Shown piece after piece: positions 1,874-17,386 of a stretch of DNA of 29,940 nucleotides. Made by a program: the position numbers and the translations under genes. The notes below the pieces were generated by a model. That model was given only the letters and a program-made list of their open reading frames with translations, searched no databases and had not been told where the DNA came from. The stretch is from a virus. The first letter of the stretch is position 1. Every line of letters starts with the position of its first letter. The stretch lies in the IMG/VR virus record IMGVR_UViG_3300027985_000870, positions 1-29,940 of that record. One strand, written 5' to 3'.

Positions 1874-2110
1874 ATGGGAATAGTGAAAAAAACAGAGCTT
1901 CGCACCAGGTTCGAGTCGAAAGGCTTTGGTGTAAAGAACTATGCGCAAGCCAAGAAGCTGAGCCAGCCTATCCTCAGTAGGATACTCGCCGGTGATCCAG
2001 AACTCACAGGAAGAAACAGGACTGGAGGTGGCGCGGTGCGAAGAGTGATATCGCAGCTCCATGAGGACGGGGTCTGGACAGACTCGCTTCCATGGGAGAT
2101 GAGTGCATGA
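1874..2110 (+). CDS. Ner-like small DNA-binding protein
   Basis: Encodes 78 residues (MGIVKKTELRTRFESKGFGV...). The segment from about residue 20 to 65 can be read as a helix-turn-helix (NYAQAKKLSQPILSRILAG). Size and position, directly before the transposase, match the Ner/Nlp regulators that turn down early transcription in Mu-like phages. The ATG at 1874 is chosen over a GTG at 1868 because AAGGAGGTGA, a perfect Shine-Dalgarno, overlaps that GTG and lies five bases from the ATG. The stop overlaps the transposase start as ATGA. The family call rests on position and weak motif resemblance. Confidence 0.6.
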   Translation: MGIVKKTELRTRFESKGFGVKNYAQAKKLSQPILSRILAGDPELTGRNRTGGGAVRRVISQLHEDGVWTDSLPWEMSA

Positions 2111-4116: not shown

Positions 4117-4198
4117 TCTGATAGGTGGAGGCGCTACGGCTGGCAGGCCGCAGCAGGTGTAAGAAAACATGAAAGTATAGCATAAGAAAGGAAAAGAT

Positions 4199-4900
4199 AT
4201 GCAGGAGAGATTTGTGGAGACAACAAACTACATAGCGATGTATGACCTCGTGTCTACATTAGTAGGACTCGATGGAAATGCAGAGCGCATGGGACTGGCA
4301 TATGGACACTTCGGACTGGGTAAGACATTCAGCCTGGAGCGGATAGCGGCTGAGTTCGACGCGATCCTACTTAGAACGGACCAAACATGGACGGTAGCGA
4401 GCACGCTGCGAAAGCTCGCAGAAGAGCTGGCTATCGACACCAAGGGAAAAGCCTCAGATGTGATGGATCGTATCGTGGCCGAGATGCTCAGGCGCCCGAG
4501 AGTAGTGATCGTCGATGAGATCGATACTCTGCTTCCGGCTGGGAAGTTCTCAGTATTGGAGCTGTTCCGTGATATCCATGACCAGACGAAGAACGTATTC
4601 CTGATGGTAGGCATGGAGAGCTGCGACGCGCGGCTCAAGGCGCACCAGCATTTCTACAGCCGTATCGTAGGCAAGGCAAAGTTCCAGAAGATACCAAAGA
4701 GCGATATCGAGAAGTTCGTAGAGCAGTGTGATGTGAAGATCGATAGCGATCTGGTGGACTACTTCCACTCCAGATTCCCGAACCTTCGACAGATCAAAGT
4801 CTTCCTGTTACGGATCGAGAGCTGGGCAGAGATGAACGAGAGAGACTCGATAGACCTAAAGACATTCAAACAGGCAGGAGTAGAAAATGCAGACCGGTAA
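4199..4900 (+). CDS. MuB-type AAA ATPase, transposition target selector
   Basis: MuB family proteins form ATP-dependent filaments on target DNA, deliver it to the transposase and protect phage DNA from self-insertion. This protein has 233 residues, shorter than Mu MuB (312). Walker A is GHFGLGKT (36-43) and Walker B VVIVDEID (102-109). The N-terminal DNA-binding extension of MuB is essentially missing; such short forms occur in many Mu-like phages. GAAAGGAAAAG precedes the ATG. It overlaps the next gene by 14 bases, indicating a transposition operon. Confidence 0.92.
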   Translation: MQERFVETTNYIAMYDLVSTLVGLDGNAERMGLAYGHFGLGKTFSLERIAAEFDAILLRTDQTWTVASTLRKLAEELAIDTKGKASDVMDRIVAEMLRRPRVVIVDEIDTLLPAGKFSVLELFRDIHDQTKNVFLMVGMESCDARLKAHQHFYSRIVGKAKFQKIPKSDIEKFVEQCDVKIDSDLVDYFHSRFPNLRQIKVFLLRIESWAEMNERDSIDLKTFKQAGVENADR

Positions 4901-5192
4901 AACCAGAAAACGAGCCAAAAAAACAACGAGCGCACAGAACAAAGCATGGCAATTCATGCGCCGAAACCGTGTATTTCGCTTCGGAGATATCGTCATGGTG
5001 ACAGGTATCTCCGTCAGCGGGCTCCAGTACTTCCTCAAACACCTGCACAAAGAGGGGTATGTGAAGAGGATGAACAATGTACGCGGCTGGACAGACCGGA
5101 CATACTCTCTCCTGCGGGACACCGGGGTCAACTCCCCGACGATCACAAAGCACAGGTTCTACGATATGAATCTTGAGGAAGGCAGCGCATGA
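4887..5192 (+). CDS. Probable winged-helix protein
   Basis: Encodes 101 residues with a very basic N-terminus (KTRKRAKK) followed by a likely winged helix: FGDIVMVTGISVSGLQYFLK as recognition part and KEGYVKRMNN as wing. It starts inside the MuB gene and ends in an ATGA overlap with the next gene, so it is translated with the transposition operon. A DNA-binding role in early regulation or in the transpososome is plausible, but no specific family is recognised. Confidence 0.7.
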   Translation: MQTGKTRKRAKKTTSAQNKAWQFMRRNRVFRFGDIVMVTGISVSGLQYFLKHLHKEGYVKRMNNVRGWTDRTYSLLRDTGVNSPTITKHRFYDMNLEEGSA

Positions 5193-5581
5193 AGCCAGGC
5201 ATAGTGATGAGCGATGCACTGCGCGCCTTCCTGTCCATGCCGCCACCGTCTCCACGGAGAGAGATGCGATATGTATACATCGTCCATCCTCCTATTACAA
5301 GAGACAAGAAGGCAAAGCAGAGAGTACGGCGGATCGACTACCTCGATCGCTTCGAGATACATACATTCCAGGGAGAGAAGATGACAAAAGATGAAGAAAA
5401 AGTACAAGAGATGGAGAGGTATCTCCAGCGAAGGTACCCGGCAGGGAGGATACTGACCCGTACCGAGGCAGTACGAGAGCTGGGACTGGAGAATGGGCAG
5501 GAGCTCGATGATCTCCTGGGGAGCGGCGAGCTGACAGGGCTCCATATCGCAGGTATCGCAAGGTACCTTGTATCTATGTAG
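5189..5581 (+). CDS. Hypothetical early protein
   Basis: Encodes 130 residues. The first half (MKPGIVMSDALRAFLSMPPP...) is proline- and arginine-rich; the second half is helical (KDEEKVQEMERYLQRRYPAG and TRTEAVRELGLENGQELDDL), the latter resembling a small helix-turn-helix. Coupled to the previous gene by ATGA. An internal in-frame ATG near 5381 preceded by GGGAGAGAAG could produce the C-terminal part alone. Not recognised. Confidence 0.65.
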   Translation: MKPGIVMSDALRAFLSMPPPSPRREMRYVYIVHPPITRDKKAKQRVRRIDYLDRFEIHTFQGEKMTKDEEKVQEMERYLQRRYPAGRILTRTEAVRELGLENGQELDDLLGSGELTGLHIAGIARYLVSM

Positions 5582-5617
5582 GAGATGTGATGAAGATAGA
5601 GAGAAGAAAGGAACAAA

Positions 5618-5848
5618 ATGACAGCGACAGGACATAGAGACGGCACAAAGAGCGTGCTGATCACGGACGACGAGAAGATGCTGAAAGTATTCGCAGCGGT
5701 GATGGACTGTGTCGAGTACGAGAAGGAGCCGCAGACAGCAGATGTGCTCTACAGCGGTGTAGAGCGGGTAGATGACGAGACTATGGGAGAACCTCGGTAT
5801 CGTAGTTCATTCCAACTACTGCACGAAGGTAGGGGTACGGGATCATGA
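5618..5848 (+). CDS. Hypothetical early protein
   Basis: Encodes 76 residues (MTATGHRDGTKSVLITDDEK...), with AGAAAGGAAC upstream of the ATG. The ATGA overlap with the Lar-like gene supports it. No domain recognised. Confidence 0.6.
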   Translation: MTATGHRDGTKSVLITDDEKMLKVFAAVMDCVEYEKEPQTADVLYSGVERVDDETMGEPRYRSSFQLLHEGRGTGS

Positions 5849-6060
5849 GGGCCTGCCCGTTCTGCCGATCTGATCGCGTCGGCGTGACAGAGAAGAGAGT
5901 GAAGGCAGCGCGCGGCGAGCGCACCCACTGGTATGTGCGGTGCAATGCCTGCCATGCGCGCGGCCCGATCCGGGACTACGAGGGTCTGGATATCCGCGCC
6001 TGGGACGGTGAGGATGCTGATGCATCGAGAGAAAAGAGCCTGTTCGACGAAGGAGAATAG
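5845..6060 (+). CDS. Lar-like restriction alleviation protein
   Basis: Encodes 71 residues with two CxxC knuckles, ACPFCRSD (Cys4, Cys7) and VRCNACHARGP (Cys33, Cys36), separated by a short region with HWYVRC. This arrangement matches the small Lar family of phages and prophages; the Rac prophage Lar reduces cleavage by EcoKI by modulating methylation. The family call rests on motif order and the conserved ARGP end of the second knuckle. An antirestriction role here is inferred; many Lar-family members are untested. Translationally coupled to the preceding gene. Confidence 0.7.
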   Translation: MRACPFCRSDRVGVTEKRVKAARGERTHWYVRCNACHARGPIRDYEGLDIRAWDGEDADASREKSLFDEGE

Positions 6061-6062
6061 CA

Positions 6063-6275
6063 ATGGTGAAGAGACGCAAAAAAAGCAACATCAAGATCGT
6101 GACAAAAAAAGAGTTCGGACTCGGATGCGACGAGTGTCCGTTCCACAAACAGAAGAGTTCTATCGTGCTGCCGAGAGCACAGGCGAACAGCGGACGGTGT
6201 GTACTGCTGCATAGCAGTACCGACGCAGTACGACAATGTCCGATACCGAAGACGAAGAGGAAAAGATATGTGTAG
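6063..6275 (+). CDS. Small cysteine-containing basic protein
   Basis: Encodes 70 residues, basic at both ends (VKRRKKSN, KTKRKRYV). Four cysteines (CDEC at 22-25, Cys46, Cys59) could bind zinc. AAGGAGAATAG precedes the ATG. No family recognised. Confidence 0.6.
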   Translation: MVKRRKKSNIKIVTKKEFGLGCDECPFHKQKSSIVLPRAQANSGRCVLLHSSTDAVRQCPIPKTKRKRYV

Positions 6276-6390
6276 ACGATCAGCTCGGATGAAGAGATGG
6301 GACCGCGCGCTTGAGTGGCTGGCATACGGAGCCACCGCTGCCGTGTGTGTGATAGTGCTGGTGATGGCATACATCGGACTGAACAACTAG
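6268..6390 (+). CDS. Short single-span membrane protein
   Basis: Encodes 40 residues: a positively charged N-terminus (MCRRSARMKRWDR) then one strongly hydrophobic segment (WLAYGATAAVCVIVLVMAYI). GAGGAAAAG precedes the ATG at 6268, and the start overlaps the previous stop. An upstream in-frame ATG at 6199 is rejected because it lacks a ribosome binding site. Small early membrane proteins sometimes act in superinfection exclusion, but nothing here shows this. Confidence 0.6.
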   Translation: MCRRSARMKRWDRALEWLAYGATAAVCVIVLVMAYIGLNN

Positions 6391-6402
6391 AAAGGAGAAA
6401 AA

Positions 6403-6660
6403 ATGGTGCTAAATGGCAAGGAGTGGACAAGTGTGTCCAAGGCTGCACAGCAGCTGGGAAAAACAGAGAAAGAGGTGCGCGAGCTCGCGAAAGAGAAGGA
6501 CGCTGAGCTCAAAAAAGTCGAGGGAAAAGAGTATGTACCCACCAGCTTCGTATACGCGGAAAGCGGTCTACGGCAGATGGGGAGACAGGTACAGGGGACA
6601 AAAGTACGCGGGAGACCGAAGAAGGTAGAAGATGAGAAAAAAGACACGGACAAGGGGTAA
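6403..6660 (+). CDS. Small helical protein with AT-hook-like motif
   Basis: Encodes 85 residues. The start (EWTSVSKAAQQLGKTEKEVR) resembles a MerR/excisionase-type helix-turn-helix; the C-terminus has RGRPKK, the core of an AT-hook. A DNA-binding role is therefore likely. GAAAGGAG precedes the ATG. The frame stays open for another 103 codons after its TAA, see the entry at 6775. Confidence 0.6.
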   Translation: MVLNGKEWTSVSKAAQQLGKTEKEVRELAKEKDAELKKVEGKEYVPTSFVYAESGLRQMGRQVQGTKVRGRPKKVEDEKKDTDKG

Positions 6661-6859
6661 GCCGCTGAGCAAGGCGTACAAGAAGCTGGCACTGGAAAGG
6701 TTGCGACTGATTATGCACAGGAGCATCTACAGGACCAGGCACCCGAAGATAATAAGCATGAAGATGACGAGGAGGTGCAAGTTTACGGCGAGGAGAGAAA
6801 GAGTGAAGAGCAGCACATCGAAGAGCTGCGCAAGCTACTCGATGAACCCGGCAAGCTGA
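6632..6859 (+). CDS. Very basic small protein
   Basis: Encodes 75 residues, about a third Lys or Arg (MRKKTRTRGKPLSKAYKKLA...). It overlaps the end of 6403-6660 and the start of 6775-6972. Codon use in its first half resembles the surrounding phage genes, and GAAGGTAG precedes the ATG. The overlap at both ends makes it less certain; the C-terminal half may be out-of-frame reading of the next gene. Function unknown. Confidence 0.45.
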   Translation: MRKKTRTRGKPLSKAYKKLALERLRLIMHRSIYRTRHPKIISMKMTRRCKFTARRERVKSSTSKSCASYSMNPAS

Positions 6860-6972
6860 TGCCGATGACATATACGGCGGAAGAGGTAAATCTAGCGGCA
6901 GAGTATGCATACGCAAGAGGCAGACTGTCGATATACGATAGTCTGCAGTCATTTGAAAGGAGAAAAATATGA
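6775..6972 (+). CDS. Small acidic hypothetical protein
   Basis: Encodes about 65 residues (EEQHIEELRKLLDEPGKLMP... YAYARGRLSIYDSLQ), with typical codon use, so the frame is real. The start is uncertain: GTG 6775 sits directly on GAGGAG, and the frame is open without a stop back to the TAA at 6658, with no better start. It could be the second half of a gene beginning at 6403. ATGA overlap with the next gene. Confidence 0.55.
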   Translation: MQVYGEERKSEEQHIEELRKLLDEPGKLMPMTYTAEEVNLAAEYAYARGRLSIYDSLQSFERRKI

Positions 6973-7181
6973 ATCACGGAATGCTCGCAAGAATAGCAGG
7001 AATGTTAGGGATGGCTTCTGCGTTCGGACATGATATAGGGACTATCCAACTCCCTCCGGCACCGCAACCAAATCGTATCGGGCACAGAAGGCACCATCAG
7101 GGACAAGTTACAAGAGGCAAGCGGTACAGATCGCAGATGGCGAGAGCCAACAGACGCAAAGCACAAAGGAGAGCAGCATGA
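6969..7181 (+). CDS. Small protein with hydrophobic N-terminus and basic tail
   Basis: Encodes 70 residues: a mildly hydrophobic start (MLARIAGMLGMASAFG), a proline-rich middle and a tail full of Arg and Lys (RGKRYRSQMARANRRKAQRR). GAAAGGAG precedes the ATG and both ends overlap neighbours as ATGA. It might bind nucleic acid through the tail. Not recognised. Confidence 0.6.
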   Translation: MNHGMLARIAGMLGMASAFGHDIGTIQLPPAPQPNRIGHRRHHQGQVTRGKRYRSQMARANRRKAQRRAA

Positions 7182-8002
7182 ATAAGACAACACTATTTTG
7201 GAAACAGTTTGATGAATTTTGCAAAGGGGTGAAGCCGTATGAGTGCGCTATGGCGCAGAAGGCGGCATTTATCGAGGGTGTGTTCGCCGCCGCCGCCGCG
7301 CTCGATGAGCTTAAATCCGTGGAGAACATGAAGCCATATTTATTCGATGCGGCGGCAGCTAAAGAGTCATACTCGGAAGTGCCGACAGATCGAGAAAAGA
7401 AGAAAGAAGAATTCTGGATCAATACACAGGGGCAGCAGGTACACACAGACAATATCCCGGCATCAGAATACTACAAGACCATCATGATCGGTGACCTGAT
7501 CGCCGCCGCGAAAGTACGACGCGACGACTTGCAGGCATTCAAGCAGTTCGCATATGATGAAGCAGAAGAGTATATGCGACTACAGCGTGAGAAGTACAAG
7601 ATAGCAGACGATCGAAGCACAGAGAAAAATCTGACGCTCACAAGCTTCGACGGAAAAATGCAGGTGCAGTTCAACCTACAGCACTCTATCCGGTTCGATG
7701 AAAAACTGACGCTTGCAAAAGCGAAGATAGACGAGTACCTCAAGGAGAAGACGGAGCACGCTGACAGCGACATTCGCACTCTGATCACAAATGTGTTCGA
7801 GGTAGACAAGCAGGGCGCAGTAGACGCAAAAAAAATATTGTCACTCAAGCGTTATGAGATATCCCATCCGCTATGGGTCGAGGCAATGGCGATCATCGAT
7901 GATGCGGTAGAGATAGCAAGCTCGAAGAGCTATGTGAACTTCAAAGAGCGCGGTGACGATGGCAAGTATAAGTCGATCACTCTTGACATAGCGAAGGTGT
8001 AG
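7178..8002 (+). CDS. DUF3164 family protein with extra N-terminal domain
   Basis: Encodes 274 residues. From about residue 85 to the end the pattern is that of DUF3164, a family common in early regions of Mu- and B3-like phages: LTLTSFDGKMQVQ, RFDEKLTLAKAKIDEYL, FEVDKQGAVDAKKILSLKRY and the end YKSITLDIAKV. The family has no established biochemical role. The first 75 or so residues (FWKQFDEFCKGVKPYECAMA) are an added helical domain absent from the typical protein as I know it. ATGA overlap with the preceding gene. Confidence 0.8.
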   Translation: MNKTTLFWKQFDEFCKGVKPYECAMAQKAAFIEGVFAAAAALDELKSVENMKPYLFDAAAAKESYSEVPTDREKKKEEFWINTQGQQVHTDNIPASEYYKTIMIGDLIAAAKVRRDDLQAFKQFAYDEAEEYMRLQREKYKIADDRSTEKNLTLTSFDGKMQVQFNLQHSIRFDEKLTLAKAKIDEYLKEKTEHADSDIRTLITNVFEVDKQGAVDAKKILSLKRYEISHPLWVEAMAIIDDAVEIASSKSYVNFKERGDDGKYKSITLDIAKV

Positions 8003-8004
8003 AA

Positions 8005-8427
8005 ATGGGCGAGCACAAATTATCAAAACGCTCTCTTCGCAACCTCGACGGCGTCCATCCGTTCCTCGGATTCGCCGTCATGAAGGCGATCGAGATCACT
8101 AAGCAGGACTTCACCGTCCTCGCAGGGGTGCGCACAGCAGAAGAACAGGCGAAGCTGGTAGCAAGCGGCGCGAGCAAGACGAGAAACTCATACCACCTCT
8201 ACGGACTGGCGGTCGACCTGGTCGCATGGGTAGACGGCAAGCCATCGTGGGAAGAGCGGCGATACGCGGCCATATCAGCGGCGATGAAGGAGGTGATAGC
8301 TGAGCACAACCTCCCGATCGAATGGGGATACGCGAAGTGGGGTTGGGATATGCCCCACTGGCAGATCACCGAGCTCGACGGCATGGACGCCAGAAATGTA
8401 TACGACATTAGAAAGATCATGGGGTAG
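8005..8427 (+). CDS. M15-family endolysin (VanY-like L-Ala-D-Glu peptidase)
   Basis: Predicted zinc peptidase that cuts peptidoglycan stem peptides for lysis. The 140 residues carry the M15 signature SYHLYGLAVD (Ser62, His64, Gly67, Ala69, Asp71) and the third metal ligand in MPHWQ (His118). The size matches small phage endolysins of the T5/Peptidase_M15_4 type. No signal peptide is visible, so release should need a holin such as that at 19934. Unusually it lies among replication genes, about 12 kb from the holin and spanins. Confidence 0.85.
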   Translation: MGEHKLSKRSLRNLDGVHPFLGFAVMKAIEITKQDFTVLAGVRTAEEQAKLVASGASKTRNSYHLYGLAVDLVAWVDGKPSWEERRYAAISAAMKEVIAEHNLPIEWGYAKWGWDMPHWQITELDGMDARNVYDIRKIMG

Positions 8428-8430
8428 GGC

Positions 8431-9003
8431 ATGGAAGCACTTCTCGACACATACAGTGGACAGCGTATATGGTTTGACAAGCACATCGACAGCAGCCAGA
8501 TAGACATCGAGGACATTATCCATTCGCTCAGCTCAATGGGTAGGTTCAATGGGCACACGCCGAGGTTGTACACCGTGGCTGAGCACAGTATGATGGTTGC
8601 GCGTATCGTAGCCCCGGAGCACAGGCTCGGCGCCTTGCTGCATGATGCAGCAGAGGCGTATATCGGAGATATAATCTCTCCTGTAAAGCGGAAAATGGGA
8701 GTGAATATGCAGCGTCTTGAAGAGCGTATCGAGCGCGCTGTAGAGCAGCGATTCGGTGTACTGATAAACACGCAGGAGATCAAGAGGGCCGACATGATCG
8801 CGCTCTACATCGAGGCAGCGACATTCTACGGTGCGGATCGGATCAAGGACTGGGGATGGGAACCATGGGTAGAGGACGCCGCGCTCGATGCGCTGCCGTC
8901 GCTTCCGACCATCTCGATGGCTGCACAGACCATGCAGTCTACTAAGCTACGCTTTCGCGCGGAGCTGATCCGGGCTGGGATGAATATCATGGAGGTGGCG
9001 TAG
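8431..9003 (+). CDS. YfdR-like HD-domain phosphohydrolase
   Basis: Encodes 190 residues with an HD metal-binding signature: VAEHSMMVARIV (His52), LLHDAAEAYIGDI (His71-Asp72) and a later Asp in KRADMIALYIEA. The pattern RFNGHTPRLYTVAEHS resembles prophage YfdR and related 5'-nucleotidase-like proteins. Such enzymes hydrolyse deoxynucleoside monophosphates, which may adjust nucleotide pools. It starts four bases after the endolysin stop. Substrate is not shown by sequence. Confidence 0.82.
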   Translation: MEALLDTYSGQRIWFDKHIDSSQIDIEDIIHSLSSMGRFNGHTPRLYTVAEHSMMVARIVAPEHRLGALLHDAAEAYIGDIISPVKRKMGVNMQRLEERIERAVEQRFGVLINTQEIKRADMIALYIEAATFYGADRIKDWGWEPWVEDAALDALPSLPTISMAAQTMQSTKLRFRAELIRAGMNIMEVA

Positions 9004-9126
9004 ATGATAGAATTTGTTGTGCAGTTCGAAATATATCAGCCAGGCCACATCGGATACAAGTCCAAAGAAAAAATATTCGCAACCGATGAAGATGATGCAA
9101 GACGAAGAATCAGAGAATACCTATAG
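9004..9126 (+). CDS. Short hypothetical protein, possibly truncated
   Basis: ATG directly follows the previous stop and has GGAGGTG seven bases upstream. It encodes 40 residues (MIEFVVQFEIYQPGHIGYKS... DEDDARRRIREYL), a beta-strand/helix pattern typical of small phage proteins. After the TAG at 9124 the same frame continues for 15 codons to a TGA at 9172, giving SQYMQMQVEKCVEGL. This suggests a nonsense mutation that shortened a 56-residue protein, or simply a chance open stretch. Confidence 0.5.
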   Translation: MIEFVVQFEIYQPGHIGYKSKEKIFATDEDDARRRIREYL

Positions 9127-9216
9127 TCTCAGTACATGCAAATGCAAGTAGAAAAGTGCGTCGAAGGGCTATGAGAAAGGCTATGAAGGGAAAACTGAAG
9201 ATCAAATAGCCTCATA

Positions 9217-9236
9217 GAGCTCACCACGGTGGGCTC
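9217..9236. repeat. Short hairpin in the 9127-9263 gap
   Basis: GAGCTCAC (9217-9224) pairs with GTGGGCTC (9229-9236), with one G-T pair, around a four-base loop. No T-tract follows, so an efficient terminator is unlikely. It could be an RNA processing or stability element between two early gene groups. The rest of the gap holds only very short open frames. Confidence 0.4.
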
Positions 9237-9263
9237 GAATGAGTCTATATGAAAGGAGAAACA

Positions 9264-9722
9264 ATGATCCCAAGCGCAGTATGCAAGAGGATAGACGAGC
9301 AGATCGGGAGCGGTACGGCGCTATCCTCTCCGAAACTCGCCGAAGCTGAGCTGATCCGCAAGCTATCCGGCGCGCTCGACGAGCGGCAGCAGAAGTTTTT
9401 CAACTACGGGTTCGTCCACGGCGGCGTGCTCGTGCTGCACTTCGACCACCCTGGGATAGTACAGGAGTTCGCGCGGACGAAGGACGAGGTGCTGCGGCGG
9501 ATGCGAAAGATTTTCGTCGACGAGCAGATGCACGGGAAGATATGGTTCCGCGACATCTCGGCCAGGCTACGACCCAAGCAGAGAGAGCCAGGCGCAGCAG
9601 AGCCGGAGACGGCAGAGCGCGCCAGCGGAGACTTCGAGATACGGACAGAGGACGAGCAGCTGCGCGGCAGCTTCGAGAGGATACGGCAGATGATACGACA
9701 GAGCAAGGAAAGGACGGAGTAG
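9264..9722 (+). CDS. DUF721/DciA-like protein
   Basis: Encodes 152 residues. The segment HGGVLVLHFDHPGIVQEF followed by charged helices and WFRDISARLRPK resembles DUF721 (DciA) proteins of Campylobacterota, where the strand ends in HPG or HPA followed by xxEF. DciA is the ancestral loader of the DnaB helicase. A variable, charged C-terminus follows (about residue 105 on). ATG 9264 is preferred over 9249 because AAAGGAG lies between them, five bases upstream of 9264. It directly precedes a RecA-like ATPase gene. The family call comes from remembered pattern only and needs profile searching. Confidence 0.45.
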   Translation: MIPSAVCKRIDEQIGSGTALSSPKLAEAELIRKLSGALDERQQKFFNYGFVHGGVLVLHFDHPGIVQEFARTKDEVLRRMRKIFVDEQMHGKIWFRDISARLRPKQREPGAAEPETAERASGDFEIRTEDEQLRGSFERIRQMIRQSKERTE

Positions 9723-10655
9723 ATGGGGAGCAGGTTCGAGTGGTCGAAGGGGCGCGTGCTGACACAGGCCGACTTCGAGATAGATGACAAGATCGCATAC
9801 ATATACGGGCTGATCCTGTCACAGAGCGTGACGCTCATATATTCTCCTCCCAAGCAGGGGAAGACATGGTTGGGATATGCGCTCGCCAGGAGGATAGCGA
9901 GGAGCGACGATGTCGATGAGATACACTATCTCGACATGGACAACTCTATTTCCACGCTCAAAGATCGCGGTGTAGATCAGAAGATCGTAGCGAACGAAGC
10001 GAAGATATTCTACTACACCAGATCGACGATAGGATGCGATCCGCTTGAGTATCTACAGCAGATAGCACATGGCGCCACAAGGGGAGCGTATACCGGGATC
10101 ACATTCTTCCTCGATACGACCAAGGACTTCGTCGATACGGACAACAAGTCACAGTCTACCGAGTTCATGCGCTGTGTGGTTCGGATCAGGGACGCCGGAG
10201 GTACGGTGATCATCCTGCACCATGCCACGAAGAACCAAAAAACAATATCAGGAAACCAGGTATTTATAAATACTCCGGACAATGTATTCGGCATGAAGCA
10301 GACAGGCAAGAGCGGTACGCTCATCAACTATCAGCTGATCGTGACGCACGCCAGGGGACTGGTAGAGGACTGCAAATACAGCGTCGACACAGAGACGCTG
10401 GACCTGCTCGAATATGACGCTATCAGCACGGCTTTCACAGATGATGAGAAAAAGCAGATCAAGAACGCGATCTTCGCCCTCAAAAACACACCTGAGGGGA
10501 TGAGCAGGTCGAAGCTGATCACGCAGGGGCTCGGCTTCGAGCTCACTTCTGACCGTCGAGGGAAAAGGATAGTAGAGGAGCTCACGGGCAAGTACTGGCG
10601 CGTCGAAGAGATAGCAAACAACAAGCACATATACCACTACATCAAGGAGGCATAG
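9723..10655 (+). CDS. RepA/RecA-like ATPase (AAA_25 type)
   Basis: Encodes 310 residues. Walker A is SPPKQGKTW (41-49); Walker B ends in FFLDTTKDF (Asp131); sensor-like ILHHATKN follows at 165-171. This is the pattern of RepA-like hexameric helicases or ATPases with a RecA fold. The C-terminal 80 residues (KQIKNAIFALKNTPEGMSRS... RGKRIVEELTGKYW) form a likely winged helix. It starts immediately after the previous stop (TAG-ATG). Mu uses host helicase instead, so a RecA-fold ATPase in this place is unusual. DNA unwinding activity is inferred, not shown. Confidence 0.78.
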   Translation: MGSRFEWSKGRVLTQADFEIDDKIAYIYGLILSQSVTLIYSPPKQGKTWLGYALARRIARSDDVDEIHYLDMDNSISTLKDRGVDQKIVANEAKIFYYTRSTIGCDPLEYLQQIAHGATRGAYTGITFFLDTTKDFVDTDNKSQSTEFMRCVVRIRDAGGTVIILHHATKNQKTISGNQVFINTPDNVFGMKQTGKSGTLINYQLIVTHARGLVEDCKYSVDTETLDLLEYDAISTAFTDDEKKQIKNAIFALKNTPEGMSRSKLITQGLGFELTSDRRGKRIVEELTGKYWRVEEIANNKHIYHYIKEA

Positions 10656-11105
10656 ATGGCGAAGAAACTGACAGACAAGCAGGTGGCATACAGGAAGCAG
10701 CTGATCAAGAGGGTACATATATCGCAGCGGTATACGAACTACTACCGTGAAGACCAGGAAGCCTATCGATCCATGCTCCTGGATCACTTCGGCGTAGACA
10801 GCTCTGCGAAGATGAATATCACGCAGCTGACCGCGCTGGCCAAGTGGTGCGACTACGATCTGCCGGAACTGCCGATCATCCGCGACAGATCGAAAGATGC
10901 TACCGAGAAGCAGCTGGAACTGATGCGAAGCCTCTGGAGATCGTATGCACATACACCGACAGACGACGCGCTGCGCCTCTTCGTTAAGCGCGTCACGAAG
11001 AAACTATACATCCATGTAGACAAGCTAACGAAGGAGGATGCGACGAAGTGCATCATCGCGCTCAAGGCCACGCTGAGGGGAAAAGATGCTCTGCCCGAAG
11101 TGTGA
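10656..11105 (+). CDS. gemA: GemA-like regulatory protein (DUF1018)
   Basis: Encodes 149 residues matching the Mu gp16/GemA pattern: KQLIKRVHISQRY near the start, YRSMLLDHFGVDSSAKMNIT in the middle, and ATEKQLELMRSLWRSYA. In Mu, GemA alters host gene expression and DNA supercoiling; family members are a hallmark of Mu-like early/middle regions. AAGGAGG lies upstream of the ATG. The 3' end overlaps the next gene by 20 bases. Confidence 0.8.
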   Translation: MAKKLTDKQVAYRKQLIKRVHISQRYTNYYREDQEAYRSMLLDHFGVDSSAKMNITQLTALAKWCDYDLPELPIIRDRSKDATEKQLELMRSLWRSYAHTPTDDALRLFVKRVTKKLYIHVDKLTKEDATKCIIALKATLRGKDALPEV

Positions 11106-11298
11106 CGCACAGAAAACGAAGACGCTCAAAACGGAGCAGATCGGCGGCAAGACAAAGAGGGTACGGTTCTGCATGAAGTGCAGTTTCTCGTTCGTATCGG
11201 AAGAGAAGCCGGTACTGATCACATTCACAGAGGAGGAGAAAGAGGAGTATGAAGAATATCTTGCTGAAATCGCTACTCAAAGCGAAAAAGACAGATGA
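11086..11298 (+). CDS. Zinc-ribbon protein, Ogr/NrdR-like, candidate late activator
   Basis: Encodes 70 residues. An N-terminal zinc ribbon has CPKC (Cys3, Cys6) and FCMKCSFSF (Cys29, Cys32), with 22 residues between the pairs, followed by an acidic helix (EEEKEEYEEYLAEI). P2 Ogr, the activator of P2 late promoters, has the same start and the same 22-residue spacing but CX4C in the second pair; the NrdR zinc ribbon is also similar. Position at the end of the early/middle genes, just before head genes, suits an activator. GAGGGGAAAAG precedes the ATG. Confidence 0.55.
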   Translation: MLCPKCDAQKTKTLKTEQIGGKTKRVRFCMKCSFSFVSEEKPVLITFTEEEKEEYEEYLAEIATQSEKDR

Positions 11299-12478
11299 AG
11301 CAGAGCTGGAAGATGCTATAGAAGCATATCTTCGTGATGTCAAAACACTCAACAAGCAGCAGACAGAAGAGTTCGTATCCGACCTGCTCGTCTACATCAT
11401 GCAGAATTTCGAGAAGCTCGATAGCGAGCAGCTTCTCGCTATAGTAATGCAGAAGATCGATGCGCTCGGCTACACGCTCAAGACCGATGCTATAGAAGCG
11501 ATCTACGAGAAGAGCGCAGTGCTGGCAGCCGCGGAGGTGTCCGCTGCGTTCGTGTTCGACAAGGAGGATGCCAGAGTCATCGAGTCGACATATAGAGCCC
11601 TCGCATGGCTCAAGAACGACGGAACGGCAAACACGCAGGAGAAGATCAAGCAGATCATCGTCTCCGCAATGGAAGGCGATGTAAATATGGCCGATCTCGG
11701 CGAGACGCTTAGGAGTGCATTCGAGGGTGTAGTAGACGAGAGCGCCAGATACTTCGAGGGGGTGAGCGATCACATCATCAGGCAGTCGCAATCACTCACA
11801 CGAGTACAGCAGTTCGCCAAAGCCGGTGTCGACTATGTCAAGGTCGTAGCGGTGATAGACAGCGTGACATCAGCTACATGCAGATCGCTTCACGGAAAGG
11901 TTATCAAGGTGTCCGATCTGCTGGGCCAGGCAGACGCGATCACGGCAGCGACTACTATCGAGGAGAAAAAGAAAGCCTCCAGGTGGCAGTCTGCCCCGAT
12001 CTTCTCGGTCAAGCTGCCCGATGGTGTCGGGATGCCGCCGTATCACTTCCGATGCAGGACGATTGTGGTAGCATACTTCCCACAAAATACAGACATTGAC
12101 GGCAAAAAAGCGAACGGTTCGTATATCCCATGGGACAAGTACAACGGCAAAGAGGTTCTCTTCAGCCAGCAGGACCCGTTCGGATATGAGCGGGTGGTGA
12201 CGGCCAAGACCTTCGATCACGGCGGCACCTATCACGGCATCTCAAAAAAAACAGTCCTCGCAGGTCTCAAGACACTCAAGGAGCTGGCGCAGCATCGGAC
12301 AGAACCGGGCAAAGAGGTGGGATGGAGTGAAGACCATAAACTCTTCTTTGTGTTCAAGGATGGTGAGGTATGGACGGTATACAACACGAGCAACAAGAAC
12401 TACTTCAAGGACAATGCAGAGCCCAAGACGATAGCTAGCTCGTCTATGAAAAAAGGAGCAGACAATGAGAACATTTAG
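11249..12478 (+). CDS. MuF-type head morphogenesis protein with C-terminal extension
   Basis: Minor head protein, probably bound to the portal inside the procapsid. The 409 residues include a helical N-terminal half, then the Mu F/SPP1 gp7 core: VDYVKVVAVIDSVTSATCRS LHGKV (around 193-217) and PPYHFRCRT (about 263-271), with its conserved cysteines and histidine. About 85 further residues follow, with histidines and a strand-rich stretch (HKLFFVFKDGEVWTVYNT). MuF proteins often carry C-terminal toxin or nuclease domains; this one could be such, but no catalytic signature is certain. GAGGAG precedes the ATG, which overlaps the zinc-ribbon gene. Confidence 0.85.
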   Translation: MKNILLKSLLKAKKTDEAELEDAIEAYLRDVKTLNKQQTEEFVSDLLVYIMQNFEKLDSEQLLAIVMQKIDALGYTLKTDAIEAIYEKSAVLAAAEVSAAFVFDKEDARVIESTYRALAWLKNDGTANTQEKIKQIIVSAMEGDVNMADLGETLRSAFEGVVDESARYFEGVSDHIIRQSQSLTRVQQFAKAGVDYVKVVAVIDSVTSATCRSLHGKVIKVSDLLGQADAITAATTIEEKKKASRWQSAPIFSVKLPDGVGMPPYHFRCRTIVVAYFPQNTDIDGKKANGSYIPWDKYNGKEVLFSQQDPFGYERVVTAKTFDHGGTYHGISKKTVLAGLKTLKELAQHRTEPGKEVGWSEDHKLFFVFKDGEVWTVYNTSNKNYFKDNAEPKTIASSSMKKGADNENI

Positions 12479-12788
12479 ATTGCGCCTCGGCAGGTCCGTA
12501 GTGCTGGAGACGGATGAGGAGACCGTATCGGCTCTCGATCTCGACGAGAAGAGGTATAGACCACTAGCTTTCGGTGAGCTGACGGCAGACGGAAGGATAC
12601 GGATGATCGCCTTCCAGCCATGCCATACCGAGCAGCTTGCCAAATCACTCAAGGATGATGAGCTATTCAGCGAAGAGGTGAAGATCGAGGTGTGGAAGTA
12701 CAATGATGAACAGCTGCGCACGGTAGACGGCATCCTGCTCGATGCGCTCCTGATCGCAGCGAACGATGGAGGTGAATACGATGTATGA
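12465..12788 (+). CDS. Hypothetical protein in head cluster
   Basis: Encodes 107 residues (MRTFRLRLGRSVVLETDEET...), strand-rich at the start and helical later. AAAAGGAG precedes the ATG, and it overlaps both neighbours by a few bases, so it is coexpressed with the MuF-type gene. Position suggests a minor head or head-tail protein, or an immunity partner for the MuF C-terminal domain; neither is shown by the sequence. Confidence 0.6.
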   Translation: MRTFRLRLGRSVVLETDEETVSALDLDEKRYRPLAFGELTADGRIRMIAFQPCHTEQLAKSLKDDELFSEEVKIEVWKYNDEQLRTVDGILLDALLIAANDGGEYDV

Positions 12789-13218
12789 TGAAGTGATCGC
12801 ACGGTTCCTCCAGCAGGGCGCGCACATGCTCCAGAGCACTGCATCGGAGCAGTATGCTCCGGTGGTGCATGGCAGGCTGCGGGGAGACATCACCGTGTTT
12901 CCACAGACTACACCCACGGAGATCAGGGTGGGAAACACCTCGCTCATAGACTACGCCGTATTTGTCTACTACGGTACCGGTATCTATGGACCGGAGAAAA
13001 AGAAGATCGTTCCAAAAACAAAAAAAGCGCTCAAGACTCCATACGGCCCAAGGAAGTCCATCAAAGGGCAGAAACCAAATCCATATCTGGAGCTGGCACT
13101 CGAAGACCTTGGCAGATCGGGCAAGCTGCTCAAGCTGCTCGATGGCTTCGGTGAGGAGATGAGCGAGGAGATGTTCAAGAACATCACAAAAGGATTAAAG
13201 AACATCAAGGTAAAATAA
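12781..13218 (+). CDS. HK97 gp10-like head-tail/tail completion protein
   Basis: Encodes 145 residues. The pattern SLIDYAVFVYYGTGIYGP followed by a basic stretch (KKIVPKTKKALKTP) and GQKPNPYLELALEDL fits the HK97 gp10/Mu gpG-type superfamily, whose members finish the head-tail junction. ATG 12781 is preferred over 12766 because GGAGGTGA lies eight bases upstream of 12781 and the start overlaps the previous stop. It ends the first head-gene block; the terminase and portal genes are on the other strand further on. Confidence 0.75.
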   Translation: MYDEVIARFLQQGAHMLQSTASEQYAPVVHGRLRGDITVFPQTTPTEIRVGNTSLIDYAVFVYYGTGIYGPEKKKIVPKTKKALKTPYGPRKSIKGQKPNPYLELALEDLGRSGKLLKLLDGFGEEMSEEMFKNITKGLKNIKVK

Positions 13219-13237
13219 ACGGAAAAAATGAGAACAA

Positions 13238-13393
13238 ATGTGGAAGTATCCGTTTAATAGATATCCATTCACACTGTACCACGAGATGTGGCGCGGCATC
13301 GTGTGGCTATACAGAAAAGCAAAGGAAAAGTATGAGCAATATCGTAAAGGAAACAGCCAAAGAACTGGGGATGACTCAGAAGGAATTGGCTGA
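13238..13393 (+). CDS. Possible small protein
   Basis: Encodes 51 residues (MWKYPFNRYPFTLYHEMWRG IVWLYRKAKEKYEQYRK...), rich in Trp and Tyr, with a helix that is amphipathic and basic. Composition looks protein-like up to about residue 38; the end is read out of frame over the XRE gene. The ribosome binding site is weak (GAGAAC). It might be a small membrane-associated peptide. No homologue recognised. Confidence 0.4.
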   Translation: MWKYPFNRYPFTLYHEMWRGIVWLYRKAKEKYEQYRKGNSQRTGDDSEGIG

Positions 13394-13544
13394 GAGAATA
13401 GGAGTACACGAAGAGACTGTAAGCAAATGGTCGAGAGGCGCAGTTGGGACTCCAGAGTGGGCAATCAGAATGTTTTCGCTTCTAAAAACAGAGCGAAAGT
13501 TCAACGCCATAAAACAGCTTATTGCTGACGAAATAGAAAAATAA
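13332..13544 (+). CDS. XRE-family helix-turn-helix regulator
   Basis: Encodes 70 residues with a clear helix-turn-helix (TQKELAERIGVHEETVSKWS) and a short C-terminal helix, a Cro-sized protein. AAAGGAAAAG precedes the ATG. It lies just upstream of the antirepressor gene, whose promoter region (13545-13598) has inverted repeats that it may bind. It probably controls the antirepressor or its own transcription. Confidence 0.85.
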   Translation: MSNIVKETAKELGMTQKELAERIGVHEETVSKWSRGAVGTPEWAIRMFSLLKTERKFNAIKQLIADEIEK

Positions 13545-13598
13545 AACAACTATATTACGATTTAACATCTTGACAAAACAGTAAAAAGTTGTTAAACT
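13545..13598 (+). promoter_or_regulatory. Promoter/operator of antirepressor gene
   Basis: TTGACA at 13570-13575 is a perfect -35; 17 bases later is TAAACT (13593-13598), four of six matches to TATAAT. Two inverted repeats overlap it: AACAACT/AGTTGTT (13545-13551, 13587-13593) and TTTAAC/GTTAAA (13561-13566, 13591-13596). Transcription would start near 13605. The adjacent XRE regulator is the obvious candidate binder. Confidence 0.6.
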
Positions 13599-13642
13599 TC
13601 CTTTTGAAATCAAACATTGCTTGATAATCCACTCAAAAGGAA
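13598..13642 (+). promoter_or_regulatory. Hairpin enclosing the antirepressor Shine-Dalgarno
   Basis: TTCCTTTTGA (13598-13607) is perfectly complementary to TCAAAAGGAA (13633-13642), which contains the ribosome binding site AAAAGGAA of the gene starting at 13647. A second stem (ATCAA with TTGAT) can form inside the loop. A transcript reading through from upstream would hide the site; one starting near 13605 would lack most of the left arm and be translated freely. Confidence 0.6.
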
Positions 13643-13646
13643 CTCC

Positions 13647-14291
13647 ATGAATTTCTCCATTCAAATCTCCCCCAAACAAATCGGAAACCAATCAATAAAC
13701 TCGATCGATGCGAGAGAACTACATAAGGCGCTTGAGATCAAGAAGGATTTTTCGGACTGGATCAAAGCACAGATCAACCGTGCAGGTCTTGAAAAACAAG
13801 TAGACTACATAGTTTTCCCCAAAAAAGGGGAAAACCTAACGGGCGGTAGACCAACGCATGACTACATCCTCACCACCGACGCTGCCAAGCATATCGCCAT
13901 GATGAGCCAGAGCCGCAGGGGCAAGGAGGTGCGCGACTACTTCATCGAGGCAGAGAAGCAGCTCCATGATCCGACCATCTCATCACCGGTGATGACACAG
14001 ATCATGGACGGGATGGCACGGATGGTACAGGGCATGAGCGCGATACTCCAGACGCAGGAGAGGATGCTCGACCGCCTCGATGCACTGGAGCACAAAGATA
14101 CACCGCTCAAGCTCCTACCAGATGTCCGCACCAACTTCAACCAGCAGCTCTATACACGAGCAGAAGAGACCGCCATAGTCTCCCTCAAAGCTCTTGGCTA
14201 CAGCTCTGATGAGATAGGTGCGATCATCGACAGATCGGGGCAAGCTGTGAGATGCAAACTGCATAGAATGAGACACGGTAAACAAAGATAA
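13647..14291 (+). CDS. AntA/AntB-type antirepressor
   Basis: Encodes 214 residues. The first 110 match the AntA/AntB domain: NSIDARELHKALEIKKDFSD WIKAQI, then DYIVFPKKG, DYILTTDAAKHIAMMSQSRR and GKEVRDYFIEAEKQL. Such proteins bind and inactivate repressors, favouring lytic growth. The middle is helical and probably oligomerises; the C-terminus (AIVSLKALGYSSDEIGAIID) looks like a helix-turn-helix. ATG 13647 is chosen because of AAAAGGAA upstream; a TTG extension to 13617 would run through the hairpin. Expression seems controlled by the promoter and hairpin directly upstream. Confidence 0.85.
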   Translation: MNFSIQISPKQIGNQSINSIDARELHKALEIKKDFSDWIKAQINRAGLEKQVDYIVFPKKGENLTGGRPTHDYILTTDAAKHIAMMSQSRRGKEVRDYFIEAEKQLHDPTISSPVMTQIMDGMARMVQGMSAILQTQERMLDRLDALEHKDTPLKLLPDVRTNFNQQLYTRAEETAIVSLKALGYSSDEIGAIIDRSGQAVRCKLHRMRHGKQR

Positions 14292-14312
14292 ACATCAGCA
14301 AAGGAAAAAACG

Positions 14313-14483
14313 ATGACAGAGCAACAAAAAAGCAAGATCGGCAGAGTAGTAAAGCAGCTTGAGTTTATGAGCGGTATGTTCATGGCATGGGACGACGATG
14401 TAGCTATCAATAGCGACGACAAAGAGTCGATAGCATTTTTCATCGACTGCATCAAGGAGGAGCTCTATTCGATACGAGGATAG
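14313..14483 (+). CDS. Small acidic protein after the antirepressor
   Basis: Encodes 56 residues (MTEQQKSKIGRVVKQLEFMS... IAFFIDCIKEELYSIRG), helical and acidic. AAAGGAAAAAACG precedes the ATG. It lies 21 bases after the antirepressor and before a hairpin terminator, so the two are probably cotranscribed. Function unknown; no family recognised. Confidence 0.6.
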   Translation: MTEQQKSKIGRVVKQLEFMSGMFMAWDDDVAINSDDKESIAFFIDCIKEELYSIRG

Positions 14484-14503
14484 ACTTTTGTTCTACGCTT
14501 CGT

Positions 14504-14527
14504 CAAAGTCCTGTTTTCAGGGCTTTG
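14504..14527. terminator. Hairpin between convergent operons
   Basis: CAAAGTCCTG (14504-14513) pairs with CAGGGCTTTG (14518-14527), ten pairs with one G-T, around TTTT. It lies between the antirepressor operon and the convergent terminase gene, so it may stop transcription from both sides. The T-tracts on either side are weak. Confidence 0.55.
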
Positions 14528-14544
14528 TTGGCGAAACGCACAAT

Positions 14545-16149
14545 CTACCCCGAGCGTATCACAAGCCCCCTTCCCTTCTTCCCCTCCTTCCTTTCTATAG
14601 CCTCGACATGACTGGCTGCAAGAGCCAGAGCCCAGAACCTGTCCGCGTGCCCGTATTCATTCTGCTTCGAATCATATAGAAATCCTCTCGCACCGGCTTT
14701 CCTCTTGATAGAGTGAATATCTGCTATGAGTATCGGGTCGTTCGGTATCCTGATGTTCCTGTTCTCGAAGAGCTGCTTGAGATTCAGCGCCATCGACTCT
14801 TTGGTCGACGCAGAGAAGTTCACACCGACAGCTCTGCGTTTGTACTTCTTGTGCATCCCCTCTGCCAGGTCAGCGCCTATACCTGTCTTGTCGATCCGCA
14901 GCTGTGCGAGCTGATATGCGTCGAGGAAAGTACGCAGATGGAGACGCTGCTCATCGAACGGAGCTTTTGCCAGGACATCGAGGACGGCAAGCTCATAGCG
15001 GTTCTCCTCCAGAGCCAGTGCGGCGAGTGCTGATCGGTGCGCACTCCTACCGATGTCATACCCGGCAAAGAGCACAGAGCTCTTCGTGGGAGAATAGTAG
15101 TGAAGCATAGGATCGACGCAGCTCTTGATAAGTCCGATCGAGAAGAGTGAGCTCTCATCATCGACGAACTGACACTCATACGCACTCGCCCAGGTGTCTT
15201 CATCGAAGAGCGCACGCATAGTCTCCAGATCGAACACCAGTCCGTCCTCGATAGCCCGATAGATATCGACACGGAAACGGGTGAACATGTAGTACTTCTC
15301 CTCATCAGTGACGAGCTGATGAAAGAGCGACGGCTCTTCGAACGGCGTAGACATGATCGTAAATCTACCCTGTACCGCACCGATGGACGGAACGAACGCG
15401 TGCCAGATCTTCTTGGGGTTCTGATACCAGGCGAACTCATCCATCCAGATGTCGCCGGTGAAGCCTTGGACGGTACGGAAGTTGTTCGCCATTGCTTTGA
15501 TGATGGCGCCGTTTGGCAGCTGCTTCTCGTGATCCTTGTCTTTCGTGAAGAGGATACCCATCTTTCCTGCCCAGTACTCGACATAGCGCATGAGGATCAG
15601 CGCCTGTTCTTCGGATGCAGAGAGGAAGAGCTGGTTGCGTCCGGCTACCGCGGCTATCAGTGCATCGGCAGCTGCTACGAACGAGAAACCGATCTGCCTG
15701 GACTTGAGTACCAGACGGTACTGATCGTCCGACATGATGAACTCTCGCTGATAGAAGAACAGATTCCCGAACTCTCCCATAAGCAACCGTACTTTGAGCG
15801 AAGCTGCTTCCTCATGGTTGGCTATATTGGTGATGACCGGCTTTGTGTGCTCTTTTTCGACCTTCCTGATCCGCTTATCCTCGCTCCTCTCCAGTCTCGC
15901 CAGCGATGCGGTGAGCATAGCGATCTTTCTCGACACGGCCTCTGTCTGCTTGCGCTTCGACAGGATGCCAAGCTGCTTCCTGATACTGTCTACCGTATCC
16001 TCTATATCTTCCCCATCATCCTTTCGCTTCCTGATCCAGGCATATATCGCTCCTTTGGATACGCCCTGGTCTGCCGCCACTTCCTCTACTGGTATGCCTG
16101 AGTCTACGAGCGCAAGGATGATCGCCTTTTTCTCCTTCTTGACAGCCAT
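14545..16149 (-). CDS. Terminase large subunit, P2 gpP family
   Basis: Packaging motor and nuclease of 534 residues. An N-terminal helix-turn-helix (GIPVEEVAADQGVSKGAIYA) replaces part of a separate DNA-recognition subunit, as in P2 gpP. The ATPase has a Walker A variant LKSRQIGFSF, the QLFLSASEEQA segment, and Walker B DIWMDEFAW. The strand AYECQFVDDESSLFSIGLIK corresponds to CEFVDDKASVFPFEDL in P2 gpP. The nuclease half has Asp in GYDIG and in YGHADRFW. ATG 16149 is preferred over GTG 16161, which would overlap the portal gene more. It is cotranscribed after the portal gene, two bases apart. Confidence 0.92.
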   Translation of the reverse strand: MAVKKEKKAIILALVDSGIPVEEVAADQGVSKGAIYAWIRKRKDDGEDIEDTVDSIRKQLGILSKRKQTEAVSRKIAMLTASLARLERSEDKRIRKVEKEHTKPVITNIANHEEAASLKVRLLMGEFGNLFFYQREFIMSDDQYRLVLKSRQIGFSFVAAADALIAAVAGRNQLFLSASEEQALILMRYVEYWAGKMGILFTKDKDHEKQLPNGAIIKAMANNFRTVQGFTGDIWMDEFAWYQNPKKIWHAFVPSIGAVQGRFTIMSTPFEEPSLFHQLVTDEEKYYMFTRFRVDIYRAIEDGLVFDLETMRALFDEDTWASAYECQFVDDESSLFSIGLIKSCVDPMLHYYSPTKSSVLFAGYDIGRSAHRSALAALALEENRYELAVLDVLAKAPFDEQRLHLRTFLDAYQLAQLRIDKTGIGADLAEGMHKKYKRRAVGVNFSASTKESMALNLKQLFENRNIRIPNDPILIADIHSIKRKAGARGFLYDSKQNEYGHADRFWALALAASHVEAIERKEGKKGRGLVIRSG

Positions 16150-16151
16150 AT

Positions 16152-17216
16152 CTATTTCCACCCCAAAATGTTCTTCGCTTCGGCAGAGGTGATGATACCT
16201 GTCTGTACCAGCCCGGTGACGAGATCGGCATCGTCTTTGAAACTTGTGGAGTCGAACGGTCGGAACTCTATCTCGATACCTTGCTCAGCGAAGAACGCAG
16301 TGATCATGTTCATGCGGGGCAGGACAGTGAGCTGATTGAACATCTCCAGCTGTGCTACCAGTTCACCGCTCCCGCCCAGAGCATTGGTATCTGTCACGCC
16401 GACGAGCCGTGGCGGTACTCCGTGCGATGCGATGATCTCGTTGCGGGCATTCTCCTTCAGATTGTTGAAGCTCATGTCGTCTATCTTCCCCATGTCCTCG
16501 ATCCTGATCTTCGGCTTGTTCTCACCACTGCTCTCCCCGGTGGTGAGGATCAGTGTCTTATGCGCGTTCCTGTATCCTCGTGTAGTGGTCTGCATGTATT
16601 CCTGTATGGCCTGTAGCTGCTCATCAGAAGGGTCACTGTCTTCGAATATGATAGCGTGGTCGAATCTGGCGCCATTTTCGAAGAACGCACCGTTGCGAGC
16701 ATCGGCACGGTAGGTGGATAGTATCTGCACCGCAGTCTCCAGGTAGTCAGGCTCACCGTAGTAGTCCGAGAGGATCGTATCGTAGAGGAAATATGCGCCG
16801 TCGAGAGGTATATACTTTGCCCCGAGGTCTGCCTTCTGGTATATCTGGTAGTCCTTGTCTATCCTCGCCCTATGAGTCCCGAGCGGATAGAGCAGGTAGT
16901 TGCTTTTCGTCCCGGCTCTCTCGAAGAACGCGGTGCCAAATGTCTCCAGGTTTAGCGCGAACTTGAACAGGAACCGTTCTATGGTCATGCCGGCAGGGAG
17001 GTGCTCACCAAGGTTGGTCTTCTCTACCTGGCTGAGCAAGTGCGCTTTGAGTCGCAGTGACCTCTTGTGGTATACATTCGCGCTATAGAGCGCACGCAGC
17101 GTATCAAAGCTCACATACGGTTCTATGATCTTCCCATCTACAGAAGATAGAAGATCCTCCTCGCTCGGCAGCTGAGCCGTATCGTTTTTTGCTTTTATTA
17201 CTAGATTTTTCTTCAT
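16152..17216 (-). CDS. Portal protein, P2 gpQ (PBSX) family
   Basis: Forms the dodecameric DNA channel at the head vertex. The 354 residues fit the family length (P2 gpQ 344). Supporting segments: YSANVYHKRSLRLKAHLLSQ near the start, FFENGARFDHAIIFEDSDPS, and NEIIASHGVPPRLVGVTDTN (compare AAHRVPPQMMGI in P2 gpQ), then GGSGELVAQLEMF. ATG 17216 follows a GGGGGGA ribosome binding site; a TTG extension to 17228 is not favoured. First gene of the leftward packaging operon, divergent from the scaffold gene. Confidence 0.92.
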   Translation of the reverse strand: MKKNLVIKAKNDTAQLPSEEDLLSSVDGKIIEPYVSFDTLRALYSANVYHKRSLRLKAHLLSQVEKTNLGEHLPAGMTIERFLFKFALNLETFGTAFFERAGTKSNYLLYPLGTHRARIDKDYQIYQKADLGAKYIPLDGAYFLYDTILSDYYGEPDYLETAVQILSTYRADARNGAFFENGARFDHAIIFEDSDPSDEQLQAIQEYMQTTTRGYRNAHKTLILTTGESSGENKPKIRIEDMGKIDDMSFNNLKENARNEIIASHGVPPRLVGVTDTNALGGSGELVAQLEMFNQLTVLPRMNMITAFFAEQGIEIEFRPFDSTSFKDDADLVTGLVQTGIITSAEAKNILGWK

Positions 17217-17386
17217 AATTCCCCCCAAAATATTGCGTCATGAAACTATATACAGGAAAAAACATGAAAGCAAGTCAATTTGAAGAATAACTTTTTTTGT
17301 GAAAAAATGAATATTTCTATTTGTCTTTTGATAATCAAAACAATATGTCAAAATGGCACTCTCAAAGCAAAAAAACGGAGGGATGA
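17217..17386. promoter_or_regulatory. Divergent late promoter region with palindrome
   Basis: This AT-rich 170-bp gap separates the leftward portal/terminase operon from the rightward capsid/tail operon, so it should hold both promoters. It contains a perfect palindrome TTTTGAT-A-ATCAAAA at 17326-17340. This is a good candidate operator for a late activator such as the zinc-ribbon protein; P2's TGT-N12-ACA pattern is not matched exactly (TGT-N15-ACA at 17322-17342). AT tracts make individual -10 boxes hard to choose. Confidence 0.55.

Follow-up and report, generated by a model that had tools for sequence, protein, structure and literature searches.

A putative start-dependent translation lock at the antirepressor gene of a Mu-like phage

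Antirepressors switch a prophage to lytic growth, and leaky read-through expression of their genes would thus be costly. In the arc-ant (immI) region of phage P22, the gene of a small DNA-binding regulator lies directly upstream of ant. Translation of ant is controlled by antisense RNA, sar in P22 and c4 in P1/P7 (PMC12197685). The antirepressor read-through mRNA of Gifsy-1 isrK-orf45-anrP is translationally inactive owing to a leader structure, which forms in RNA started at isrK's own promoter and which the IsrK sRNA, acting in trans, opens together with translational coupling (PMC4825925). In phage T4, longer early transcripts of gene e are translated about 100-fold less, and the hairpin's 5′ strand contains the late promoters; soc, 49, I-TevI and mobE also have leaders of the gene e type (PMC3014915).

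The window analysed here is the whole of a 29.9-kb IMG/VR virus record (29,940 nucleotides), which domain and profile matches assign to a Mu-like transposable phage. The phage encodes an rve transposase with a Mu C-terminal domain, an AAA transposition protein, GemA and a Mu F-like head protein, the last with a Mu F-like Pfam match that falls under its curated cutoff and a PHROG minor head protein match of 7.5e-17. An S24-type repressor gene lies on the minus strand (328–996). Portal and terminase genes are also present, running on the minus strand at 14545–17228 opposite to most of the genome and convergent with the antirepressor operon. Nucleotide similarity searches against phage records returned chance-level pieces only, and the transposase as query against IMG/VR gave no match. 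The closest relative of the window phage is a syntenic prophage in a Sulfurovum MAG (hereafter L010), with protein identities of 59–60% for the transposase, 63% for the HTH protein, 45% for the antirepressor and 75% for the terminase.

The antirepressor gene of the window (13647–14291, plus strand) is of the AntA type (Pfam AntA, PF08346, 8.9e-24, above cutoff; phrog_5817 anti-repressor Ant, 5.4e-37), and a gene for a 70-aa HTH regulator of the Cro/CI type (13332–13544, plus strand; Pfam HTH_3, 3e-8) lies directly 5′ of it. The window phage thus resembles P22 arc-ant in having a small regulator gene immediately 5′ of the antirepressor gene, whereas an HTH protein stands in place of Arc and is only a candidate repressor of the antirepressor promoter. 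In a sister phage (L074), the interval between the neck gene and the antirepressor gene contains a truncated HTH gene followed by the gene of a small Arc-like protein, ribbon–helix–helix-like by eye and with no match in Pfam, which also resembles P22 arc-ant. The genes of the window from 2092 to 13544 are co-directional with the antirepressor gene, those upstream of it are mostly head genes along with the HTH gene, and no terminator-like site was found on the plus strand in the scanned interval 12500–15500.

A consensus scan identified a sigma-70-type promoter ahead of the antirepressor gene, TTGACA-17-TAAACT, with a 10/12 match and a TG ahead of the −10 hexamer. Its −35 hexamer (13570–13575, plus strand) is kept in L010, and its −10 hexamer (13593–13598) is TAAAAT there. 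On the minus strand, a promoter-like TTGTCA-16-TATAGT (13549–13576) overlaps the −35 hexamer and reads leftward into the HTH gene; by eye, this site is not kept in L010. The preliminary description of this DNA, made from the letters alone, had claimed a perfect 10-bp stem over the ribosome binding site of the antirepressor gene. Direct reading of the sequence confirmed it: the left arm TTCCTTTTGA (13598–13607, plus strand) is perfectly complementary over 10 bp to the right arm TCAAAAGGAA (13633–13642, plus strand), which contains the Shine–Dalgarno (SD) sequence AAAAGGAA (13635–13642) 4 nt ahead of the ATG at 13647. Between the arms lie an inner dyad, ATCAA-N7-TTGAT (13609–13625, plus strand), and the linker ATCCAC (13627–13632, plus strand), which is identical in L010. 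The first base of the left arm is the last base of the −10 hexamer and the arm runs through the discriminator, so that it should be absent from locally started RNA. The preliminary description had also placed the start of the local promoter near 13605, inside the left arm; the overlap of promoter and arm holds, and the spacing from the −10 hexamer predicts a start zone 5–9 nt past it (13603–13607, plus strand).

The minimum free energy fold consists of the 10-bp stem and a 5-bp inner stem, though its stability is only moderate for its composition (z = −2.3; 7 of 200 shuffles folded equally well). In RNA entering from upstream, the SD has a predicted unpaired probability near 0. Transcripts entering from upstream are predicted to pay about 8.3 kcal/mol to open the SD, and those starting at 13602–13607 about 2.4 kcal/mol; the ranges were 7.9–8.4 kcal/mol with the 5′ end at 13598 or further upstream and 2.3–2.8 kcal/mol with the 5′ end at 13602–13607, which agrees with the earlier claim that a locally started transcript cannot form the full stem. 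The CC at 13600–13601, which pairs with the GG of the SD, sits 2–3 nt past the −10 hexamer, so no normally spaced start would include it, and the predicted opening of the SD is thus independent of the exact start at 13605. None of 100 promoter-segment shuffles reached this energy switch, in the window phage and in L010 alike, and neither 25 chromosomal promoter segments nor 25 shuffles included one that masked the window SD as well.

Considering these results, we propose with moderate confidence that the antirepressor leader is a start-dependent translation lock, with read-through RNA masked and locally started RNA open, and that its mechanism is like that of gene e but not derived from it by descent. 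Polymerase entering from the co-directional head, neck and HTH genes would produce RNA with both arms, in which the 10-bp helix would bury the SD and the antirepressor would hardly be translated. The dedicated promoter would start RNA about 5–9 nt past the −10 hexamer, inside or just beyond the left arm, so that the CC would be missing and the SD open, and this local RNA would keep only the small inner hairpin at its 5′ end. The promoter is likely under a repressor, and the HTH protein encoded next to it is the obvious candidate for this role. The gene's own promoter would then be the sole productive source of antirepressor, and the masked start probably guards the lysogeny switch. Three other explanations of the arms were rejected. 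A divergent-gene SD pair would need a minus-strand start codon at SD distance past the left arm, and there is none; an attenuator or terminator does not fit a site with no U tract; and ribosome coupling from the HTH gene is not expected with 53 nt between its stop codon and the left arm.

The proposed lock resembles T4 gene e in that a hairpin would cover the SD in upstream-started RNA and a promoter in the 5′ strand would yield RNA without that strand, as predicted for the window. It differs in that the window promoter is sigma-70-like and of host type rather than T4 late, and in that the gene regulates lysogeny in a transposable phage. The two show no sequence homology, and the window lock is predicted from sequence and folding. 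Descent from the gene e family is not indicated, the locus combining TTGACA-TAAACT and an AntA gene rather than the late promoter TATAAATA and a lysozyme gene. The preliminary description had invoked the logic of gene e and soc, including a block on early read-through transcripts; the masking geometry agrees with the T4 case (PMC3014915), whereas any read-through into the window gene would not be simply 'early', since it would come mostly from head genes along with the small HTH gene. As with sar and c4, antirepressor translation would be blocked at the ribosome binding site despite transcription, though sar and c4 are separate antisense RNAs and the block in the window would act in cis and depend on the start. 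It would differ from Gifsy-1 in that the window phage loses one arm through an alternative start. Start-dependent loss of an arm is not used by sar, c4 or anrP, and it was not found at antirepressors in the open-licence full-text literature. If the proposal is true, the T4 lysozyme trick works at a lysogeny switch from an ordinary promoter of the sigma-70 type; a left arm over the −10 hexamer and discriminator, complementary to the gene's own SD, would be a searchable rule for any temperate phage; and RNA-seq coverage of such genes would be no proof of protein.

The leader of the window aligned gap-free with that of L010 over 52 nt. The arm blocks are identical (TTCCTTTTGAAA, 12/12; ATCCACTCAAAAGGA, 15/15), as is the left arm itself (10/10), and the inner segment of 17 nt has mostly diverged. 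At the equivalent position, the inner dyad of L010 is AGCTGAA-N3-TTCAGCT; all five inner pairs of the window still pair in L010, three of them via two-sided base-pair changes, and about 1% of inner-segment shuffles paired at all five positions. The predicted cost of opening the L010 SD is 5.5–8.5 kcal/mol in read-through RNA versus 1.6–2.0 kcal/mol with a local start. The compensatory stem changes in relatives that the preliminary description had named as a check were thus found in the inner stem. In the comparison with L010, the single ortholog, the outer stem showed none and is invariant, and it is absent from a similar HTH–antirepressor pair (L178) that has an inner dyad. The evidence from sequence comparison for the outer stem is therefore conservation, not covariation, and the right arm is partly conserved in any case because it doubles as the SD.

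The inverted repeats around the promoter and leader could instead be DNA operator sites, bound by the S24-type repressor or by the HTH protein, the SD complementarity being a by-product of dyad operators beside an SD. The inner dyad has changed in sequence but stayed symmetrical, as expected of an operator tracking a changing repressor, and more loci have the leader dyad than the outer stem. Spacer dyads in L010 and L072, and the repeated operator-like motifs that L135 and L144 carry in the −35/−10 spacer and the leader, also fit an operator; the window itself has a weak dyad, AACAGTAAAAAGTTGTT, in its −35/−10 spacer (13577–13593, plus strand), which is a possible operator and is replaced by ACTAAAATATTTAGT in L010. 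However, the inner dyad has no further copy in the window within four mismatches, the outer arms lie 35 bp apart from start to start with loops of about 16 to more than 80 nt across loci, which is unusual for a dimer site, and the exact match of the outer arm to the SD is poorly explained by a DNA-only reading. As the explanation of the stem, an operator thus appears unlikely to us. Its fit is better for the inner dyad than for the outer stem, and it can hold together with masking; the inner dyad may bind the HTH protein or the main repressor as an operator, form a 5′-terminal hairpin that protects the local mRNA, or do both.

The rarity of the outer stem bears on whether a conserved SD merely happens to pair with a T-rich, C-containing discriminator, with no function. 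Among 778 SD-bearing starts in related phages, two, the antirepressor included, had a perfect 10-bp complement of their SD in the preceding 70 nt, or about 1 in 400. The pattern CCTTTTGA-N18-28-CACTCAAAAGG had a single occurrence among 397 Campylobacterota genomes, at the orthologous antirepressor gene. These counts, along with the retention of the left arm at 10 of 10 positions in a phage with about 45–60% protein identity, make chance or SD-driven pairing distinctly improbable, even with the moderate stem stability and the patchy distribution and negative replicate set described below, which speak for it. Exact matches to the outer stem in 27 IMG/VR contigs were attributed to chance, since they lay mostly in coding-like sequence without the promoter and SD arrangement; a stricter outer-stem pattern gave no match in IMG/VR.

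Antisense RNA control, with the stem as part of a small RNA or of its target, is a known theme for ant translation in P22 and P1/P7 (PMC12197685), and the antirepressor genes of sister phages are preceded by a long leader in which a hairpin is conserved. In the window, the leader is only about 42 nt, and no minus-strand promoter-like site is aimed at the SD from close by: in a consensus scan, the nearest such sites are either some 830 bp downstream or face away from the ribosome binding site, and a P22 sar-type antisense promoter was not found. Rfam at gathering score gave no match in the window and seven relatives, and permissive scans of window 13200–14000 and two sister leaders gave chance-level hits only, none of them to C4. 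Control of the sar or c4 kind is thus very improbable at this locus. The sister-phage leaders (L071, L072, L073, L074 and L122) share the hairpin GAATATT..AGAGCC..GGTTCT..AGAATATT rather than a short masked leader, are 138–177 nt long where a promoter was found, precede AntA, BRO-N or Rha genes, and have no Rfam match; the leader of L103 is similar by eye. This hairpin may be a c4-like antisense element.

The HTH gene is stable in the window (13332–14291) and its relatives, whereas the downstream antirepressor varies among AntA, BRO-N and Rha within one phage lineage, which suggests that the antirepressor position is a module exchange site. Since BRO-N or Rha proteins take the place of AntA at this position in sister phages, the HTH gene is a better guide to comparable loci than the antirepressor. 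Several HTH-linked loci that have a promoter close by carry, at the −10 hexamer and discriminator, a left arm that pairs with the locus's own SD region, the sequences being unrelated: AATGCTCC/GGAGCATT in L127, ATAATCCGTTC/GAGCGGATTAT in L144, TTCCTCT/AGAGGAA in L137 and TATAATTCCTAAA/TTTAGGAGATATA in L034. Swaps of promoter segments among 12 HTH-linked loci supported locus-specific masking (p = 5e-5), also after removal of the window and L010 (p = 2.5e-4). In AntA genes lacking the HTH gene, the masking excess was not significant (p = 0.12), and the first within-locus control comprised 11 promoters, the sole strong case among which, L034, turned out to be HTH-linked. A replicate set of 13 new HTH-linked IMG/VR loci showed no locus-specific masking (p = 0.52), so that extension to all HTH-linked genes as a general rule was not confirmed, though masking at these loci modestly exceeded that at chromosomal promoters (p = 0.016). 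A masking of 3.5 kcal/mol or more occurred at 8 of 13 exploratory loci, which include L034, put in post hoc, at 2 of 13 replicate loci and at 2 of 30 chromosomal promoter controls. The masking trait, as judged throughout with predicted promoters and predicted start sites, is thus enriched in part of the HTH-linked group and is not a rule. It is possible, and we suggest it only tentatively, that HTH-linked lysogeny-switch genes (AntA, Rha and others) in Campylobacterota mobile elements repeatedly evolved the −10 hexamer and discriminator as an anti-SD arm that tracks each gene's SD region, the promoter itself encoding a lock on read-through RNA.

Elsewhere in the window, in the early control region, SD–SD complementarity was observed between 1782–1790 and 1827–1835 (GTCTCCTTT/AAAGGAGAC), with an inner dyad TTTGTGT/ACACAAA and divergent starts; it probably reflects just two divergent SDs.
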